Of a stretch of DNA of 64,000 bases, positions 56,017-64,000 are shown piece by piece. This DNA comes from Acidobacteriota bacterium (GTDB taxonomy: Bacteria > Acidobacteriota > Terriglobia > Bryobacterales > Bryobacteraceae), in assembly GCA_018268835.1 (NCBI GenBank), contig JAFDVU010000011.1, forward strand, positions 1-64,000, in the 5' to 3' direction. The translations under genes and the position numbers were made by a program. The notes beneath the pieces were generated by a model, which was not told the DNA's origin, did not search any database, and saw only the letters and a list, made by a program, of their open reading frames with translations. Positions within the stretch are counted from its first letter, which is position 1. Each line of letters begins with the position of its first letter.

Positions 56017-56940
56017 CTACCTGGGCGGTGGCAGGGTGGATGAAGGGGCGGGCTTGCCCCCGACGGGCTCGATTTCCATCATTTCGACGCGGGTGCCGTC
56101 TGGGTCGAAGAGGCCGACCTGTCGCTTGTTGTCGACGCCGAGGTTGACTTTTAGTTCGCGCGGGTAGTTCTTGCGGGCGGGGCGGGCTTCGAGGGTGGCG
56201 ACCGCCTTGTAGATATCGGGCACGACCAGGCAGATGTGATGCGGGCTGCCGCGGCGGTCGGGCGGGGGCAGTTCCTTGTAGAGCATGAACTCGACGTGGT
56301 TGTCGCCGTCGGGGACGCGCATGTTGACCCAGTTGAGAGTGGTCGAGGTGAGGCTGTTGCCGCGCCAGGTCTCGTGGCAGCCGAGGATGCCGCCGTAGAA
56401 GGCGGCCGCGGCGCTGAGGTTGCCGACCAGGATGCCGGCGTGCATCATGCGGTCGGAGATACGGGTCGGGGGCATGTGTTTGCCGGTGTCCTTGCCGGTC
56501 CAGCTATCGGGCAGGTACTGGACGATTTCGACGGTGTGGTTGTCGGGGTCGGTGACCGAGATTTTGCGGTTGCCGATGCGATTGGTGACGGCTTCCGCGG
56601 GGACTTTGACGCCGCGGGAGGCGAGGTAGAGGCGCATGCGTTCGACGTCGTCGGTGTAGAGGCCGAGGTGGTTGAGTTGCCCTTCGCCCTTGTTGGGCTG
56701 GTTGACCAGTTCGACGTACTGGTGGTCGTTGATCTTGATGAAGACCATTTGCACGGAGCCGTCGGGCTTGGGGAGGGTGAAGGCTTCCTGGTAGCCGAGG
56801 AAGTCCTCGTAGAAGGCGCGGGCTTTGGCCAGGTCGCTGACGAAGATGGAGTAGTGGGCAACGCCCAGGAGTCTGGGGCGCGCGGGGGGCGTCTGGGCGG
56901 AGAGGGGCAGGGCCAGGAGGAGCGCGAAAAGGAGCCGCAT
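56017..56940 (-). CDS. Exported protein with two VOC (glyoxalase/dioxygenase-like) domains
   Basis: 307 residues from the ATG at 56940, which starts a signal peptide (MRLLFALLLALPLSAQ); the frame extends to 57093 without protein-like sequence. Two vicinal-oxygen-chelate modules: first LLGVAHYSIFVSDLAKARAFYEDFLG to VTDPDNHTVEIVQY, second MHAGILVGNLSAAAAFYGGILG to LFDPDGTRVEMME. The His and Glu positions typical of the metal site are present (HY, VE; MHAG, VEMME). Reaction unknown. The stop codon TAG lies in GGTAGCGCC. Confidence 0.85.
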   Translation of the reverse strand: MRLLFALLLALPLSAQTPPARPRLLGVAHYSIFVSDLAKARAFYEDFLGYQEAFTLPKPDGSVQMVFIKINDHQYVELVNQPNKGEGQLNHLGLYTDDVERMRLYLASRGVKVPAEAVTNRIGNRKISVTDPDNHTVEIVQYLPDSWTGKDTGKHMPPTRISDRMMHAGILVGNLSAAAAFYGGILGCHETWRGNSLTSTTLNWVNMRVPDGDNHVEFMLYKELPPPDRRGSPHHICLVVPDIYKAVATLEARPARKNYPRELKVNLGVDNKRQVGLFDPDGTRVEMMEIEPVGGKPAPSSTLPPPR

Positions 56941-56979
56941 GGGATTTAGGGTATGCTCTGGCGGCGGGGCGGGCAAGTT

Positions 56980-57003
56980 CGGCGGCATTTCCGCCGGCGC
57001 TAC
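56980..57003 (-). repeat. GTAG-headed hairpin overlapping the stop of the 57000-57605 gene
   Basis: Minus strand: GTAGCGC, then a perfect 6-bp stem CGGCGG/CCGCCG with a 5-base loop. The TAG of the head is the stop codon of the gene ending at 57000. The layout equals that of the units between hoxH and hoxW, although the stem sequence differs. Confidence 0.5.
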
Positions 57004-57605
57004 CAGTTGCGGAAGCCGGGGCCCGCGTCGGTCTCCACTTCGCGCCAGCCCATGGAACCGATGGCTGCGACGTCGGGGTAGCGGTCCGCCCATTCGTTGT
57101 AGAGGGTGCCGATGGCGGGCCCGGCGAGGGATGCGGTGTCGCGGAGGAGGGCGGGGACATCGGCGGCGGCGCGGGCCGCACAGTGAACCAGGAGAGTGAA
57201 GCCGATCAGGAAGTCGCGGATATCGTGGCCGGTGAGGTCGACGATGGCGAAGGCGATGAGGCCGGCGCGGGCGAGTGCGGGGTCGTGTTCGCGCGCGGCG
57301 AGGATGGCGGCGCGGAGTCCGAAGAGACCGAGTTTGCCGGCGATCCGGTGGTCCACGCTGGAGCGAAGCCAGGTGCGCTGCGCGTCCGTGGCGTCGCGGT
57401 AGAGGGCGCAGAGGCGGAGACAGCCTTCGAACCAGGGCTCACGGGAGAAGCGGACGAACTGCTCGCGCGACCAGGGTTCATCATGGTCTGGGAGAAGCGG
57501 TCCGGCGGCGGAGACGAAATCGCGTCCGGCATCTTCGCGGAGACGGACGCGATCCCACGAACGTTCCTCTTCGTGGCGGAGGCGGTGATAGTCGAGCAGC
57601 TTCAG
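57000..57605 (-). CDS. Helical protein of unknown function, CTG start coupled to the receptor stop
   Basis: The frame reads as protein for 201 codons from the CTG at 57603-57605, whose last two bases are the first two of the receptor TGA stop (CTGA overlap). It begins MKLLDYHRLRHEEERSWDRVR if CTG is read as Met and ends GWREVETDAGPGFRNW. No ATG, GTG or TTG exists before the GTG at 57356, and the sequence upstream of that GTG has the same amphipathic, charged character, so a 118-residue product from 57356 would be truncated. Mostly alpha-helical, with hydrophobic stretch RAGLIAFAIVDLTGHDIRDFLIGFTLLV. No family recognised. Coupling to the receptor suggests joint expression. Confidence 0.65.
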   Translation of the reverse strand: MKLLDYHRLRHEEERSWDRVRLREDAGRDFVSAAGPLLPDHDEPWSREQFVRFSREPWFEGCLRLCALYRDATDAQRTWLRSSVDHRIAGKLGLFGLRAAILAAREHDPALARAGLIAFAIVDLTGHDIRDFLIGFTLLVHCAARAAADVPALLRDTASLAGPAIGTLYNEWADRYPDVAAIGSMGWREVETDAGPGFRNW

Positions 57606-60600
57606 AAGAACAGTTTAAGCCCGAATTGCAGGTAGCGGGAGCCGCCTCGCTGGTAGAGCGTGCCGAAGGTGGTGCTGTAGGCGTTGCGCAGCCGGTAATA
57701 CTTGTAGCCCTGCAGCGTGGTGATGTCGTAGGACGTGGCCGCGTTGCCGTAGAAGTTGGCGGGCAGCGGCGTGTTGAAGAAACTGGTCGGCAGCACGTTG
57801 TTGGTCTTCTGGGCGTTGATCATGCCGACGATGCCGTTGTAGGCTGCGGCGCCGGCGGTGGTGTTGTAGAGCGGCTGATTGTTGGCCTTGGCCCAGGTGT
57901 CGTACTCGGCGGTGGTGAGGTTGGCGGTGCTCGGGGCGCCCATGAAATCGGCGCCGCCGCCATTGTTGGGATAGACGCGGAAGATGGGGTGGTTGAGCAG
58001 GTTGAGGGCGTCGGCGCGGAACTGGAGGCGCCGCCTGCCGCTTTCGCCGAGTTTGAAGCTCTTCTGCACGGAGACGTCGAGGTACTGCGCCCAGGGTCCG
58101 CGGACGCCATCGAGGGTGCGCGGGGCGCTGCCCGGGCGGCCGAGCGGCGGACGCATGAAGGCCGCGGGGTTCACGTAGGGCTGGCAGCCGTTGCCGACCG
58201 GGCAGGTGGAACTCCACAGGGGATTGACGAGCGGAACGCCGGCGAGCATATCGGGGCGCGCGGTGTGGGTGAGGTCGCCGATCTGGTTCGAGTCGGAGAG
58301 GTACGGCAGGTAGGGGAAGCCGCTGTTGAGACGCTCGATGCCGCTAACGGTCCAGCCGCCGACCAGGGCGTCGAGGGGTTTCCACGCGTTGTTGAGGAGC
58401 AGGCGGCCGCGTCCGACCGGCAGGTCGTAGATGACGGTGCCGTTGATGGTATGGCGCTGGTCGAAGGTGGAGACGCTGCGGTCCAGGTAGCGAGGATAGC
58501 CGAAAGCCACCTGGCCATCGGTCTGTCCGCCGACCGCGGTGAGGATGTTCTTGTCGCCGCCGGAGTTGGACGCGTCGTCGATGGATTTGGCCCAGGTGTA
58601 GTTGGCGGTGAAGGTGAGGCCGCGGGCGACCCGATGCTGCACGCTGACGTAGCCGCCGTGGCGGATGGAGTTGGCGCTGGCGTCATACAGCAGGTAGAGC
58701 GAGGAGAAGCCGAGGTAGGGGCTGCCGAGGCTGCCGTTTTGCACGGTGAGTTTCGCGCCGGTGGCGGGATTGATGCGGCCCAGCGGGTCCGCGATGGTGG
58801 CGGTGGGATTCACGGCGGCGGCATTCTGCGCGTCGAGCAACGGGGAGTTCTTGGGGTTGATGTTCTCGTTGGGCATGAACAGGCGGGTGCCCTTGAGCCC
58901 GGTGTAGCCGATTTCCATGGTGGTGGTGGGGTTTGCCTGCCAGGAGATGGTGAGGTTCCAGTTCTGGATGTAGGGGGTGTGGTAGTTGGGGCTGACCGCG
59001 AAGCCGCCGATGCCCTGGTAGTAGAGGCTGTTGTTGGTGACGAGCCCGCTGGCCGGGGCATTGATCACCTGCGCCGGGGTCTGGGGGACGACCAGCGGCG
59101 GATTTTCGCCGAGGCGCATCACATAGTTGGGATTGGCGGTCTGGGATGGGATGGTGGTAGTGAAGCCGACGGTGGAGCCGAAGTCGGGACCGGGCAAACG
59201 GCGGGCGCCGCTGATGGGCGCGTGGGAGAGTCCGTAACCGCCGCGCAGGGTGACGCGGTGATCGGCGAGGAAGCGGGGGCTCCATGCGAAACCGAAGCGG
59301 GGCTCGAAGTTCTTGTAATCGGTGGGGGTCATGTAGCGCGAGTTGCCACCGCGGCCGCTGAAGGCGAAGGCGGGCGCCTGCACGCTGTTGACGACGGTGC
59401 CGTCCTGAAGCTTAAGCGGCGTGGCCAGGGGGAAGGTGTTGATCATGTCGAGGTTGAAGACGCCCTGGTTATCGTACTTTTCGGTGCGCGGCATCTGCAC
59501 GCCGTAGCGGAGGCCGATGTTGAGGGTGAGGTTGGGGCGGACTTTCCAATCATTCTGCACGAAGCCGGAGTAGGAGTTCCAGCGGTAGTAGTAGGGGATC
59601 TGTGCGTTGCGCAGAGTGACGGTGCTGTTGACGACGCCGAGCAGGAAACTAGCGAAGGGGCTGCCGGCGGTACCGGTCGAGGTTCCGTTGGAGTTGGTCT
59701 GGATGGTGGAGAAGTTGTACTGTCCACCCATCGAGGCGTAGAGCGGGAGGACGTTCTGCAACGCGTGCGAGAAATCGAAGCCGAACTTGAGGCTCATCGT
59801 GCCGTGGCTCTTGTAGAAGATGTCGGTGAGGGCGTAACGCTCCTCGCGGTCTTCCACGGAGGTGGAACCGCCGCCGCCGAGTCCGGTGGCGTTGGAGCCG
59901 CCGCCACCGAGGGCGGAGCCGGGGAAGAGCCCGTTCAGTCCGGGGACGCCGCCTCTGGTGAGGGAGGGCAGGCCGAGTATGGTGTTGAGGTTGTTGCCGG
60001 TGTTGATGTCCCACTCGGGAGCAAGGGTGTTACTGAAGCGGCCACGCGTGTAGTTGAGGCGCAGATCGTTCAACACGGTCGGTGAGATCATGCGGGTGTA
60101 AGCCAGCATGGCCTGCTTGGCCCAGCTGTATTCGCCGCTGGCCTGGGTGGTGGAGACGGGGGTGTCCTGGATCTTGACGATGGGGGTAGCGGTGTAGCGT
60201 ACGTTGAGGCGGTCTTTGTCGCTGACGATCTGATCCACGCGAATGGTGTAACGCTTCTCGTCCTGCTGGAGTCGGCGGGGGGAACTGATGTTTGAGATGA
60301 GCCCGTTGCTGTTGAGGTAGTAGGCGCCGGCGGGGGCGATGTACTGCATGGCTTTCTGCGCGGAGGCGTCGAGGTACTGGGCGGGGATCTTGTTGCCGGG
60401 GAATGGCAGGTAGGCGGGCTGGCAGTTGGTGGTGATGGTGGCGGTGCAGAGCGTGATGGGGACGAACTGATTGTTGCCGGTGAGGTTGTACTGCTGGTAG
60501 ATGACGCTGCCGCCGGTGGCGGGTGCGACGGCGGTGGGAGCGGTGCCCTGGAACCGGTCGACGACGCTCTGCGGGAGCCAGCCGCTGTTGGTGTTGACCA

Positions 60601-61609
60601 GGCCGCTGAAATCGCCGGTACGCATGCCGTCGGTCGGCATCAGGCCGTATTGGTCGAGGTGGTCGCGGCGGTAGTTGGGTTCGAAACCGGCGAACCAGAA
60701 CGTTTTGTTCTTCCCGTTATAGACCTTGGGGATATAGACCGGGCCTCCGGCGGTGAGGGAGAACTGGTTGTACTTGAGGGTGGGGTAGGGCCGGTTGGTG
60801 GCGGCGTTGGTCCAGGGAGCGGCCGCGACATCGGGATTGCGGTTGTACCACAGCACCGCGCCGTTGAAGTTATTGGTGCCGCTCTTGGTGGTGGCGCTGA
60901 TGACGCCGCCGCCCGTGGTGGAGTATTCGGCCGAGAAGGCGGTGGTCTGGACGGTGAATTCCTGGACGGTTTCGGGCGAGAAACTGACCATCGTCCGGGC
61001 CAGGCTGACGCCGGTGTTATTGGTGCCGTCGGCCATCATCAGGGTGTTGAGGGGGCGGCCGCCGTTGACGCTGATGTTGCATCCAGGGCAGGTGGTCTCG
61101 CTGACCATGAGGGGGTTTTCGCTGCCCGGGTCGCCGCTGACGTTAGGCTGGACCATGGCCAGGTCGAGGACGCTGCGGTTGACCAGCGGGACGTCCTGCA
61201 ACTCGCGCGAGGTGACCGTGCTGCTAGTGGTGCCGCTCTCCACGTTGAGCATGGCGACTTCGGCGGAGACGGTGACCTGGGTATCGACCGAGCCGGTTTG
61301 CAGGGTGACGTTGACGGCGGTGGTGGAGGCGGTATCGACCTTGACGTTTTCCACGGCGGCTTTCTTGAAGCCCTGCATTTCGACTTCGACCTTGTAAGTG
61401 ACCGGGTCGAGGTCGAGCGCCGAGTAAGTGCCGGCGGCGCCGGTGGTGATCTTACGGCTTTCGTTGGTGCCGGTGTTGGTGATGGTGACGGAGGCACCGG
61501 GGACGACGGAGCCGCTCTGGTCGGTAACCGTTCCGCTGATGGCGCCGCGGTTGGTCTGAGCGAGCAGGGAAACCGCGGCGAGACACGCGGTCGCAACTAG
61601 GCGTTTCAT
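57602..61609 (-). CDS. Second Oar-like TonB-dependent receptor with carboxypeptidase-regulatory-like domain
   Basis: 1335 residues. Signal peptide MKRLVATACLAAVSLLAQ. Residues ~20-105 are the CnaB-like domain (GAISGTVTDQSGSVVPGASV). A plug-like region follows (SSTVTSRELQDVPLVNRSVLDL, AEYSTTGGGVISATTKSGTN), then a large barrel ending LKLFF. Same architecture as the 27363 receptor but clearly different in sequence. ATG at 61609 without a good Shine-Dalgarno. A promoter-like pair and a repeated TTGGACT lie upstream. The GH27 gene is divergent in function but on the same strand upstream, separated by 255 bases, so a separate transcript is likely. Ligand unknown. Confidence 0.92.
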   Translation of the reverse strand: MKRLVATACLAAVSLLAQTNRGAISGTVTDQSGSVVPGASVTITNTGTNESRKITTGAAGTYSALDLDPVTYKVEVEMQGFKKAAVENVKVDTASTTAVNVTLQTGSVDTQVTVSAEVAMLNVESGTTSSTVTSRELQDVPLVNRSVLDLAMVQPNVSGDPGSENPLMVSETTCPGCNISVNGGRPLNTLMMADGTNNTGVSLARTMVSFSPETVQEFTVQTTAFSAEYSTTGGGVISATTKSGTNNFNGAVLWYNRNPDVAAAPWTNAATNRPYPTLKYNQFSLTAGGPVYIPKVYNGKNKTFWFAGFEPNYRRDHLDQYGLMPTDGMRTGDFSGLVNTNSGWLPQSVVDRFQGTAPTAVAPATGGSVIYQQYNLTGNNQFVPITLCTATITTNCQPAYLPFPGNKIPAQYLDASAQKAMQYIAPAGAYYLNSNGLISNISSPRRLQQDEKRYTIRVDQIVSDKDRLNVRYTATPIVKIQDTPVSTTQASGEYSWAKQAMLAYTRMISPTVLNDLRLNYTRGRFSNTLAPEWDINTGNNLNTILGLPSLTRGGVPGLNGLFPGSALGGGGSNATGLGGGGSTSVEDREERYALTDIFYKSHGTMSLKFGFDFSHALQNVLPLYASMGGQYNFSTIQTNSNGTSTGTAGSPFASFLLGVVNSTVTLRNAQIPYYYRWNSYSGFVQNDWKVRPNLTLNIGLRYGVQMPRTEKYDNQGVFNLDMINTFPLATPLKLQDGTVVNSVQAPAFAFSGRGGNSRYMTPTDYKNFEPRFGFAWSPRFLADHRVTLRGGYGLSHAPISGARRLPGPDFGSTVGFTTTIPSQTANPNYVMRLGENPPLVVPQTPAQVINAPASGLVTNNSLYYQGIGGFAVSPNYHTPYIQNWNLTISWQANPTTTMEIGYTGLKGTRLFMPNENINPKNSPLLDAQNAAAVNPTATIADPLGRINPATGAKLTVQNGSLGSPYLGFSSLYLLYDASANSIRHGGYVSVQHRVARGLTFTANYTWAKSIDDASNSGGDKNILTAVGGQTDGQVAFGYPRYLDRSVSTFDQRHTINGTVIYDLPVGRGRLLLNNAWKPLDALVGGWTVSGIERLNSGFPYLPYLSDSNQIGDLTHTARPDMLAGVPLVNPLWSSTCPVGNGCQPYVNPAAFMRPPLGRPGSAPRTLDGVRGPWAQYLDVSVQKSFKLGESGRRRLQFRADALNLLNHPIFRVYPNNGGGADFMGAPSTANLTTAEYDTWAKANNQPLYNTTAGAAAYNGIVGMINAQKTNNVLPTSFFNTPLPANFYGNAATSYDITTLQGYKYYRLRNAYSTTFGTLYQRGGSRYLQFGLKLFF

Positions 61610-61857: not shown

Positions 61858-61874
61858 ATTCCGCTCAGCGGAAT
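61858..61874 (-). terminator. Hairpin spanning the GH27 stop codon
   Basis: Perfect 7-bp stem ATTCCGC/GCGGAAT (61858-61864 with 61868-61874) whose 3-base loop is the TGA stop codon of the GH27 gene on the minus strand. No U-tract. Possible terminator or 3'-end stabiliser. The rest of the 61610-61857 gap holds only the promoter region of the receptor. Confidence 0.4.
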
Positions 61875-63151
61875 GCGAGCATGGCTGAGGCATGAGGTGC
61901 GAGTCTGACCGGGTAGCTGCCGGAGAATTTACCGAGGTCGCGGCGCGCCCAGAGGTCGCGCACGGCGTGGGCACCGCGAAGACCGAGGTCCTGGAAATCC
62001 ACGCGGACTTCCAGGGCGGGCTGTTCACCGATATTGAAGAGGGCGACGTAAGGTTTGCCTGCGACGGTGCTGACCCAGGCGACGGCATCGCCGTTCCGGA
62101 AGAGCTGATGCTGGCCGGAGCCTTTCAGGAGGGGGGCGAGGACTTCGTCGTTGTTGAGCAGGGAGAGGGTCCAGTCGTCGTTGCTGGGGAGGTCCCCTCC
62201 GAACATGAGGGGGCTGCGGGCGATGCACCACAGGGTCAGCAGGGTGCGTTGCTCGTCGCGCGTGAAGCGGGTGGGACGGTCGTCGCCGCGTTCGGCGCGG
62301 ATGCCGATGCGGCCGAGCGGGAGCATGTCGGCGTCGGGCCAGCCGCCTGGTTTGGCGTGAGGGCTCCACTTATCGAGGAGGTCGAAGCTGTGGCGGAGGT
62401 CGCGCCAGAGATCCCAGAAGTCGCCGGAGATGCGCCAGAGGTTGGCGTTGGCGGCGTAGAAATCCGCTTTGGCGAGGTCGGCGGGACCGGGGGAGAGGCT
62501 GAGGACGATGGGGCGTCCGGTCTTGAGGATGGCTTTGTGGAGGGCTTCGATTTCGGCGGCGTGGAGCGGAGTGGCGATGTCGTCGGCCTTGATGTAGTCG
62601 ACGCCCCAGGAGGCGTAGAGCTGGAGGATGGAATCGTAATAATCCTGGGCGCCGGGTTTGGTCATATCGACGCCGTACATGTCGGTATTCCAGCGGCAGA
62701 TGGATTTGGTGTCGGCGATATCGGCGGCGTGGACGGTGCTGGAGAAGATGGGCAGGTTGGCGGCGACGGCGCGGCGGGGGATGCCGCGCATGATGTGGAT
62801 GCCGAACTTGAGGCCCTTGCCGTGAACGTAGGCGGCGAGCGAGGGGAAGCCGGAGGGGAAGCGGTTGGGGGCGGGAATGAGGCGGCCGTAGGGGTCCATG
62901 GCAAGCTCGGCGTTGGGCCGGTAGCCGTGGGGTTTGGCGAGGGGGTCGGACCACTGGATATCGACGACGATGAATTGCCAGCCGTGCGGCTTGAGTTTGG
63001 CGGCCATGTAATCGGCGTTGGCCTTGACTTCTGCCTCGGTCACGCTGGTGCCGTAGGAATCCCAGCTATTCCAGCCCATGGGAGGGGTGAGGGCGACAGG
63101 TGAGGCGGCGAATGCGGCGCACGCGGCCGCGAGGAATGGCCAAAGTCTCAT
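61865..63151 (-). CDS. Exported GH27 alpha-galactosidase
   Basis: 428 residues from the ATG at 63151; the frame is open to 63469 but that part is a shadow of the upstream gene. Signal peptide MRLWPFLAAACAAFAAS. GH27 hallmarks: LTPPMGWNSWDSYG (21-34), GWQFIVVDIQW, nucleophile D190 in DYIKADD, probable acid/base D244 in WRISGDFWD with R240, and GGWPDADMLPLG. C-terminal beta-sandwich domain follows. It removes alpha-linked galactose, for example from galactomannan or raffinose-type sugars. It begins 10 bases after the end of the upstream metallo-beta-lactamase gene, so they form an operon. Confidence 0.93.
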   Translation of the reverse strand: MRLWPFLAAACAAFAASPVALTPPMGWNSWDSYGTSVTEAEVKANADYMAAKLKPHGWQFIVVDIQWSDPLAKPHGYRPNAELAMDPYGRLIPAPNRFPSGFPSLAAYVHGKGLKFGIHIMRGIPRRAVAANLPIFSSTVHAADIADTKSICRWNTDMYGVDMTKPGAQDYYDSILQLYASWGVDYIKADDIATPLHAAEIEALHKAILKTGRPIVLSLSPGPADLAKADFYAANANLWRISGDFWDLWRDLRHSFDLLDKWSPHAKPGGWPDADMLPLGRIGIRAERGDDRPTRFTRDEQRTLLTLWCIARSPLMFGGDLPSNDDWTLSLLNNDEVLAPLLKGSGQHQLFRNGDAVAWVSTVAGKPYVALFNIGEQPALEVRVDFQDLGLRGAHAVRDLWARRDLGKFSGSYPVRLAPHASAMLAFR

Positions 63152-63161
63152 GCGCTCTACC

Positions 63162-64000
63162 TTACCACCCGGGCGACCACTGCCAACCTTCGCCGGCGCG
63201 GGCGACGGTGCCGATGCTGGGGAAGGGGAAGTGGAAGGCCATGACGTGCATGTTGGAGGCGGCGGCGAGTTGGAGGAGCCGGCGGCGGGTCTGCACGGCG
63301 CCGGCGGGAGCGAGGTCGAAGCCGTTTTCCCACGAGGGTTGGGCGAGGTGCAGCGGGTGGACGGCGGCATCGCCGAGATTGAGCAGGGCATCGCCGCCGG
63401 ACTGGATGAGGACGGCGAGGTGGCCGGGGGTATGGCCGGGGGCGGGGAGGGCGGCAACGCCGGGGACAATTTCGGTTTCGCGTTCGACGGCTTCGACCTG
63501 GTGGCGGAGCGGGCCGAGGCAGCGGCGGGCCATGGAGTGGATGTCGATTTTGGCGGAATCGGGGACGCGGAGGGGAGAGAGGTCGGCGCGGGCGGCGGTC
63601 CAGAACTCCCATTCGATTTCGCTGAGGACGTAGCGCGCGTGGGGGAAGGTGGGGCGTCCGCAGAGGTCGATGGCGCCGCCGATGTGGTCGGGGTGGGCGT
63701 GGGTGAGAATCACGGTATCGACATCGCCGGGGCGAATGCCGGTGGCGGCGAGGCGGCTAAGGATGGCGCCGCTGGTGGCGGAGGATTCGCCGGCTCCGGT
63801 ATCGACGAGGACGACGTAGCGGCCGGTTTCGACGAGGAGGCAGGTGTAGGGGCTGAGGAGACCGTCGGGGGGCTGATGGCAGGCGGCAAGGGCGCCGGTG
63901 AGCTCGCGCGGGTCGGCGTTGGGAAAGACCCACGAGGCGGGGTAGGAGTAGTAGCCGTCGCTCAGGACGGTGCACTGGATGGACCCCACCTGGAAGCGGT
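63162..64000 (-). CDS. Metallo-beta-lactamase fold hydrolase, 5' end outside the window
   Basis: The frame continues through the window edge (RFQ precedes the GTG at 63989), so the true start is probably a few codons outside; at least 279 residues are seen. Zinc motif THAHPDHIGG, later GHTPGHLAV and the LGDAAVHPL Asp/His ligands. It opens VGSIQCTVLSDGYYSYP, a common start for the AttM-like lactonase and quorum-quenching branch as well as for other MBL hydrolases. It ends 10 bases before the GH27 start. Substrate not readable. Confidence 0.88.
   Translation of the reverse strand, partial: RFQVGSIQCTVLSDGYYSYPASWVFPNADPRELTGALAACHQPPDGLLSPYTCLLVETGRYVVLVDTGAGESSATSGAILSRLAATGIRPGDVDTVILTHAHPDHIGGAIDLCGRPTFPHARYVLSEIEWEFWTAARADLSPLRVPDSAKIDIHSMARRCLGPLRHQVEAVERETEIVPGVAALPAPGHTPGHLAVLIQSGGDALLNLGDAAVHPLHLAQPSWENGFDLAPAGAVQTRRRLLQLAAASNMHVMAFHFPFPSIGTVARAGEGWQWSPGW

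Follow-up and report, generated by a model that had tools for sequence, protein, structure and literature searches.

This locus poses a simple question. Can an open frame, with no conventional start codon in its first 83 codons, be a genuine gene that begins with CTG? The frame lies in a 64,000-nucleotide stretch from the genome of a soil-type bacterium of the Acidobacteriota (hereafter, the window) and directly follows a gene for an Oar-like receptor (Table 1). On the minus strand, it reads from 57605 to 57003 as 201 codons, uninterrupted by stops or frameshifts, and ends with TAG (57002-57000). A first-pass annotation, made from the letters alone, gave correct coordinates and facts for 57000-57605, and left the strand unstated. 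As noted there, ATG, GTG and TTG are absent before codon 84 (GTG 57356), from which a 118-residue fragment would result, and the proposed CTG overlaps the receptor TGA as CTGA. Upstream of the CTG are only three codons (ACT GTT CTT), and then an in-frame TAA. Hence, the gene can have no earlier start. Note that a further CTG, at codon 3, could be an alternative start. No Shine-Dalgarno sequence is visible ahead of the first CTG. We consider that the frame is probably a genuine protein-coding gene, joined behind the receptor, and we infer that its translation starts at CTG.

Table 1. Positions of the CTG-started gene, its proposed signals and neighbouring genes in the window
Feature	Position	Strand	Remarks
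VOC/glyoxalase-family gene, downstream	56017..56940	-	true start ATG about 56940; open frame to ATG 57093
CTG-started gene (probable), 201 codons + TAG	57000..57605	-	translation, homologues, AF2 model; helical protein, unnamed Bryobacterales-type family
GTG, codon 84, first canonical start codon in frame	57354..57356	-	118-aa fragment without five helices
Receptor stop TGA	57602..57604	-	two bases common with CTG, giving a 4-base CTGA overlap
Proposed start codon CTG	57603..57605	-	ATG (G007, G248) or GTG (G228) in aligned homologues
In-frame stop TAA, upstream bound of open frame	57615..57617	-	sequence; four codons upstream of CTG
Oar-like outer-membrane barrel receptor, 1335 aa, ends KLFF	57602..61609	-	last codon TTC supplies C of CTG
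Alpha-galactosidase (Melibiase) gene, upstream	61865..63469	-	same-strand neighbourhood

The 83-codon gap is unusual. Given the codon frequencies of the window, the chance of such a stretch without ATG, GTG or TTG is ~0.0015. Inside the predicted genes of the window, the same is true of 198 from 16,216 stretches of this length (1.2%). By itself, the gap is not decisive. The GC3 value is 0.76 for the first 83 codons, compared with 0.87 for the remainder, and this lower value counts against a CTG start.

We searched 237 genomes of the same bacterial family for relatives of the 201-residue translation. Close homologues were found in G014 (E 2e-34), G248 (6e-30), G228 (2e-16) and the same-genus genome G007 (2e-6). 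The G014 homologue is at a contig end and its N-terminus is missing. The other three align from exactly the CTG codon of the window, where G248 and G007 have ATG and G228 has GTG. Note that G228 has an additional in-frame ATG nine codons upstream of its GTG. The start regions, in DNA, are CTGAAGCTGCTCGACTATCACCGC for the window, ATGAAGCTGCTGGACTACCATCGT for G007, ATGAACCTGCTCGATTACCACCGG for G248 and GTGAAGCTTCTCGACTATCATCGC for G228. Following the start codon, the motif LLDYHRL is the same in the window and these three homologues. Weak matches at L007 and L009 were left out of the argument on the start, and the family profile did not recover L009. The alignments establish the frame as a member of a protein family and its CTG codon as homologous to the ATG or GTG start codon of relatives. 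The first 83 residues, by themselves, match L023 (4e-8), L003 (1e-8) and L025 (2e-5). Base changes at the three codon positions number 10/6/23 against G007 (codons 2-35) and 38/37/58 against G248 (first 83 codons). This third-position excess is as would be expected under protein-level constraint; dN/dS is unusable for these comparisons because synonymous sites are saturated.

No homologue begins at GTG 57356. A start at this codon, with only the C-terminal part made, is thus a very unlikely alternative, although no canonical start comes before it in the frame and a gene caller at default settings might choose it. The first 83 residues are present in all homologues with a visible N-terminus, and a frame in G080, the shortest relative at 141 codons, still extends upstream of codon 84. 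The predicted structure bears on the same point. AlphaFold2, using a four-sequence alignment, models the 201-residue product as helical throughout, apart from a beta hairpin at the C-terminus (pLDDT 86.8, pTM 0.87). The N-terminal helices are within one confident fold, and five of them precede GTG 57356 (residues 3-15, 19-26, 28-37, 57-70 and 74-82). The codon also falls inside the family core (residues 47-199), common to the Rhs-linked relatives described below, which a start there would cut. PDB sequence and fold searches, and a viral fold library, gave nothing resembling the protein. Similarly, profile searches of Pfam, NCBIfam, PADLOC and PHROGs produced no credible match, and no relative was found in viral contigs.

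An explanation for the odd start is offered by the neighbouring gene. The receptor matches the OMP_b-brl_4 barrel (PF25183, E 1e-162) and has an N-terminal carboxypeptidase-regulatory-like domain, which bears out its initial naming as Oar-like; no plug domain was matched in the profile search. There are 66 PF25183 matches in the genome. The 3' end could be read in 29 paralogues. The terminal residue is Phe in 27 of these, with Trp and Tyr in one each, and 15 finish with TTC-TGA. Of the three same-genus receptor orthologues, those in G007 (79% identity) and G006 (68%) finish with TTC-TAG, and the one in G002 (71%, across the 3' part) with TTC-TGA. The terminal aromatic residue of outer-membrane proteins serves barrel assembly. 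The C of the CTG is part of the receptor's Phe codon, and ATGA would force a terminal Leu; this explains the unusual start. The last residue of outer-membrane barrels here is aromatic and, with few exceptions, Phe (TTY), so that a 4-base overlap behind them can provide CTG or TTG, not ATG.

The same reasoning argues against a base-call or assembly error, whereby the true sequence would be ATGA (or GTGA or TTGA) and the start ordinary. Such an error might be suspected since the genome is a 367-contig draft, with one copy of the region. However, with ATGA or GTGA the receptor would end in Leu (TTA or TTG), against TTC in orthologues and an aromatic residue in paralogues. The single alternative left is TTTTGA, which would retain Phe and give a TTG start. 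We regard an error as highly improbable. Equally, because the two frames overlap, and the open frame starts a few codons upstream of the CTG, it might be translated by frameshifting out of the receptor, as an extension with no start of its own. This we find hardly credible, and rejected, because there is no classical slippery heptamer at CTGTTCTTCTGA. Furthermore, relatives are free-standing genes behind unrelated genes, and the extension would bury the terminal Phe of the barrel.

While the CTG start proposed at first pass is supported by homologues, the accompanying suggestion, that the gene is a conserved partner of TonB receptors, does not stand. No related gene is found behind any of the three receptor orthologues, and none of the homologues whose upstream neighbour is visible comes after a receptor. 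Instead, the G007 homologue is behind a fucosidase-like gene, with a TGATG overlap, and the G248 homologue is between a response-regulator-like gene and an LptF/G-like permease (neighbours named from their translations). Hence, the gene appears to have been joined to the receptor. DNA similarity to the receptor orthologues ends with the receptor itself (57602-57604) and, for orthologues of the VOC gene (G008 and G005), similarity likewise stops near the VOC start. These two breaks indicate that the CTG gene was inserted, or joined, between both neighbours. The VOC open frame (56017-57093, minus strand) runs 94 bases into the CTG gene, and its orthologues align from 56940. A gene caller that took the long VOC form, from ATG 57093, would hide the CTG gene further. 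Antisense to the receptor is a 936-codon open frame (window 57275-60085, plus strand). We did not count this as a gene, since such frames are a typical by-product of high GC3.

How might the present arrangement have arisen? We propose that a rearrangement joined the gene to the 3' end of the receptor, keeping TGAAGCTG of its start region. In the joining, the A of ATG would have been replaced by the final base of the receptor's Phe codon. Since the terminal Phe must stay in the receptor, the usual ATG could not be kept. Ribosomes finishing the receptor at TGA may then step back by one base and start again at CTG, with formyl-Met. Termination-reinitiation is suggested by the lack of a visible Shine-Dalgarno sequence and by the overlap geometry, since the CTG falls within the arrangement of a same-strand start that overlaps the upstream stop by 1-4 bases. 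The product would be a helical protein of 201 residues, made in small amounts coupled to the receptor.

The main rival to this reading is that joining destroyed the ATG and left a remnant, now untranslated or nearly so, with decay yet to come. CUG is a poor start. In addition, the same-genus copy in G007 (L003:1-311, minus strand, at a contig end) is a pseudogene, with internal segments lost and a broken frame, even though its ATG is kept. The other seven same-genus genomes show no copy. Hence, the gene is dispensable or losable. Conversely, neither stops nor frameshifts interrupt the 201 codons. The family motif and a strong codon bias (GC3 0.87) persist in the C-terminal part, and AlphaFold2 still folds the protein with a pLDDT of 87. 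We consider a remnant possible, if somewhat unlikely, and favour a gene translated from CTG.

We also counted NTGA junctions between predicted genes, in the window and 20 further stretches of the genome (460 kb in all, about 6% of the total). There are 56 such junctions (A 29, G 12, C 11, T 4). Only the CTG gene has no canonical start either upstream in frame or within 60 codons downstream. At each of the ten remaining C-TGA junctions, a canonical start is present within 32 codons. Hence, CTG coupling is no habit of this genome, and the case here is a single one. A receptor paralogue at L026, which ends TTC-TGA and has 381 codons open from the CTG in the overlap, was considered as a second case and rejected; the product is GTPase-like and has an ATG nine codons in.

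The CTG gene appears to be hidden from default gene finders; callers that allow only ATG, GTG and TTG cannot see CTG starts. In the present case, homology speaks for CTG with unusual clarity, and the changed start is accounted for by the neighbour. A broader idea follows, which we put forward as unlikely: outer-membrane proteins might impose a start rule on genes captured behind them, with the terminal TTY permitting CTG or TTG. There would then be a small, overlooked class of CTG-started, receptor-coupled genes missed by standard annotation. The rule is testable by seeking non-canonical starts behind outer-membrane protein genes that end TTC-TGA.

A further outcome is a family of helical proteins, hitherto undescribed, that has relatives linked to Rhs genes. 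Distant members were detected by profile and reciprocal searches (profile-profile 98.7%, E 2e-16, residues 47-199). In G200, two follow the end of an Rhs-like protein (contig C420), and one comes after an RHS_repeat gene (PF05593) with a small frame between (C685). In G134 (C432), one comes after a frame with a C-terminus similar to that of the Rhs-like protein in G200 C420. These Rhs-adjacent relatives (L104:1428-2740, plus strand; L105:6235-6828, minus; L110:2526-3123, minus; two being in tandem in G200) are placed as in toxin-immunity pairs, and the family is absent from Pfam. A G235 protein (L106:5089-6099, minus strand) apparently contains two tandem copies of the helical domain. Position directly behind Rhs genes suggests an immunity-type family. 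The window genome has few RHS_repeat matches, none beside the CTG gene, and the placement directly downstream of an Rhs gene is that of the G200 and G134 relatives and not of the window gene. As a lead only, the superfamily may be immunity-type and partner-binding, with the window gene an orphan member. The most likely role of its protein would be the binding of a partner protein.

Three known systems are useful comparisons. The Rhs-linked candidate immunity genes (G200 C420 and C685; G134 C432) belong to the same protein superfamily, and the same bacterial family, as the window gene. However, identity is only 21%, and the window gene and its close homologues have no adjoining Rhs gene. The second comparison is with RepFIB rep of F-like plasmids. 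Among model bacteria, 20 of about 85,000 annotated genes, about 0.024%, have CTG starts (PMC11983097). That of RepFIB rep was proven by N-terminal analysis and mutation, and annotations commonly place it, wrongly, at a GTG 14 codons further on (PMC11983097). The CTG gene thus resembles rep in having a probable CTG start and a downstream GTG open to routine misannotation, although the start of rep is established by experiment. Expression of rep is low, and low output would be expected of the CTG gene. Unlike rep, described with its own ribosome-binding site, the CTG gene has no visible Shine-Dalgarno sequence and its CTG is inside the stop of the upstream gene. In a reporter, CUG supports about 0.86% of AUG expression (PMC11497404), and switches from AUG to CUG are very rare (2/61,358; PMC5622118). 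Hence, the literature makes the present case plausible, rare, and probably low in output. The third comparison is with termination-reinitiation pairs that have a 4-base overlap (PMC10666635). These have the same geometry, in that the first base of the start codon immediately precedes the TGA of the upstream gene. However, the -4 overlap was described in that survey as ATGA or GTGA (PMC10666635), whereas the overlap in the window is CTGA, and its first base is set by the terminal Phe codon of an outer-membrane protein. CTG starts are known, if rare; what would be new is a CTGA overlap imposed by this terminal Phe.
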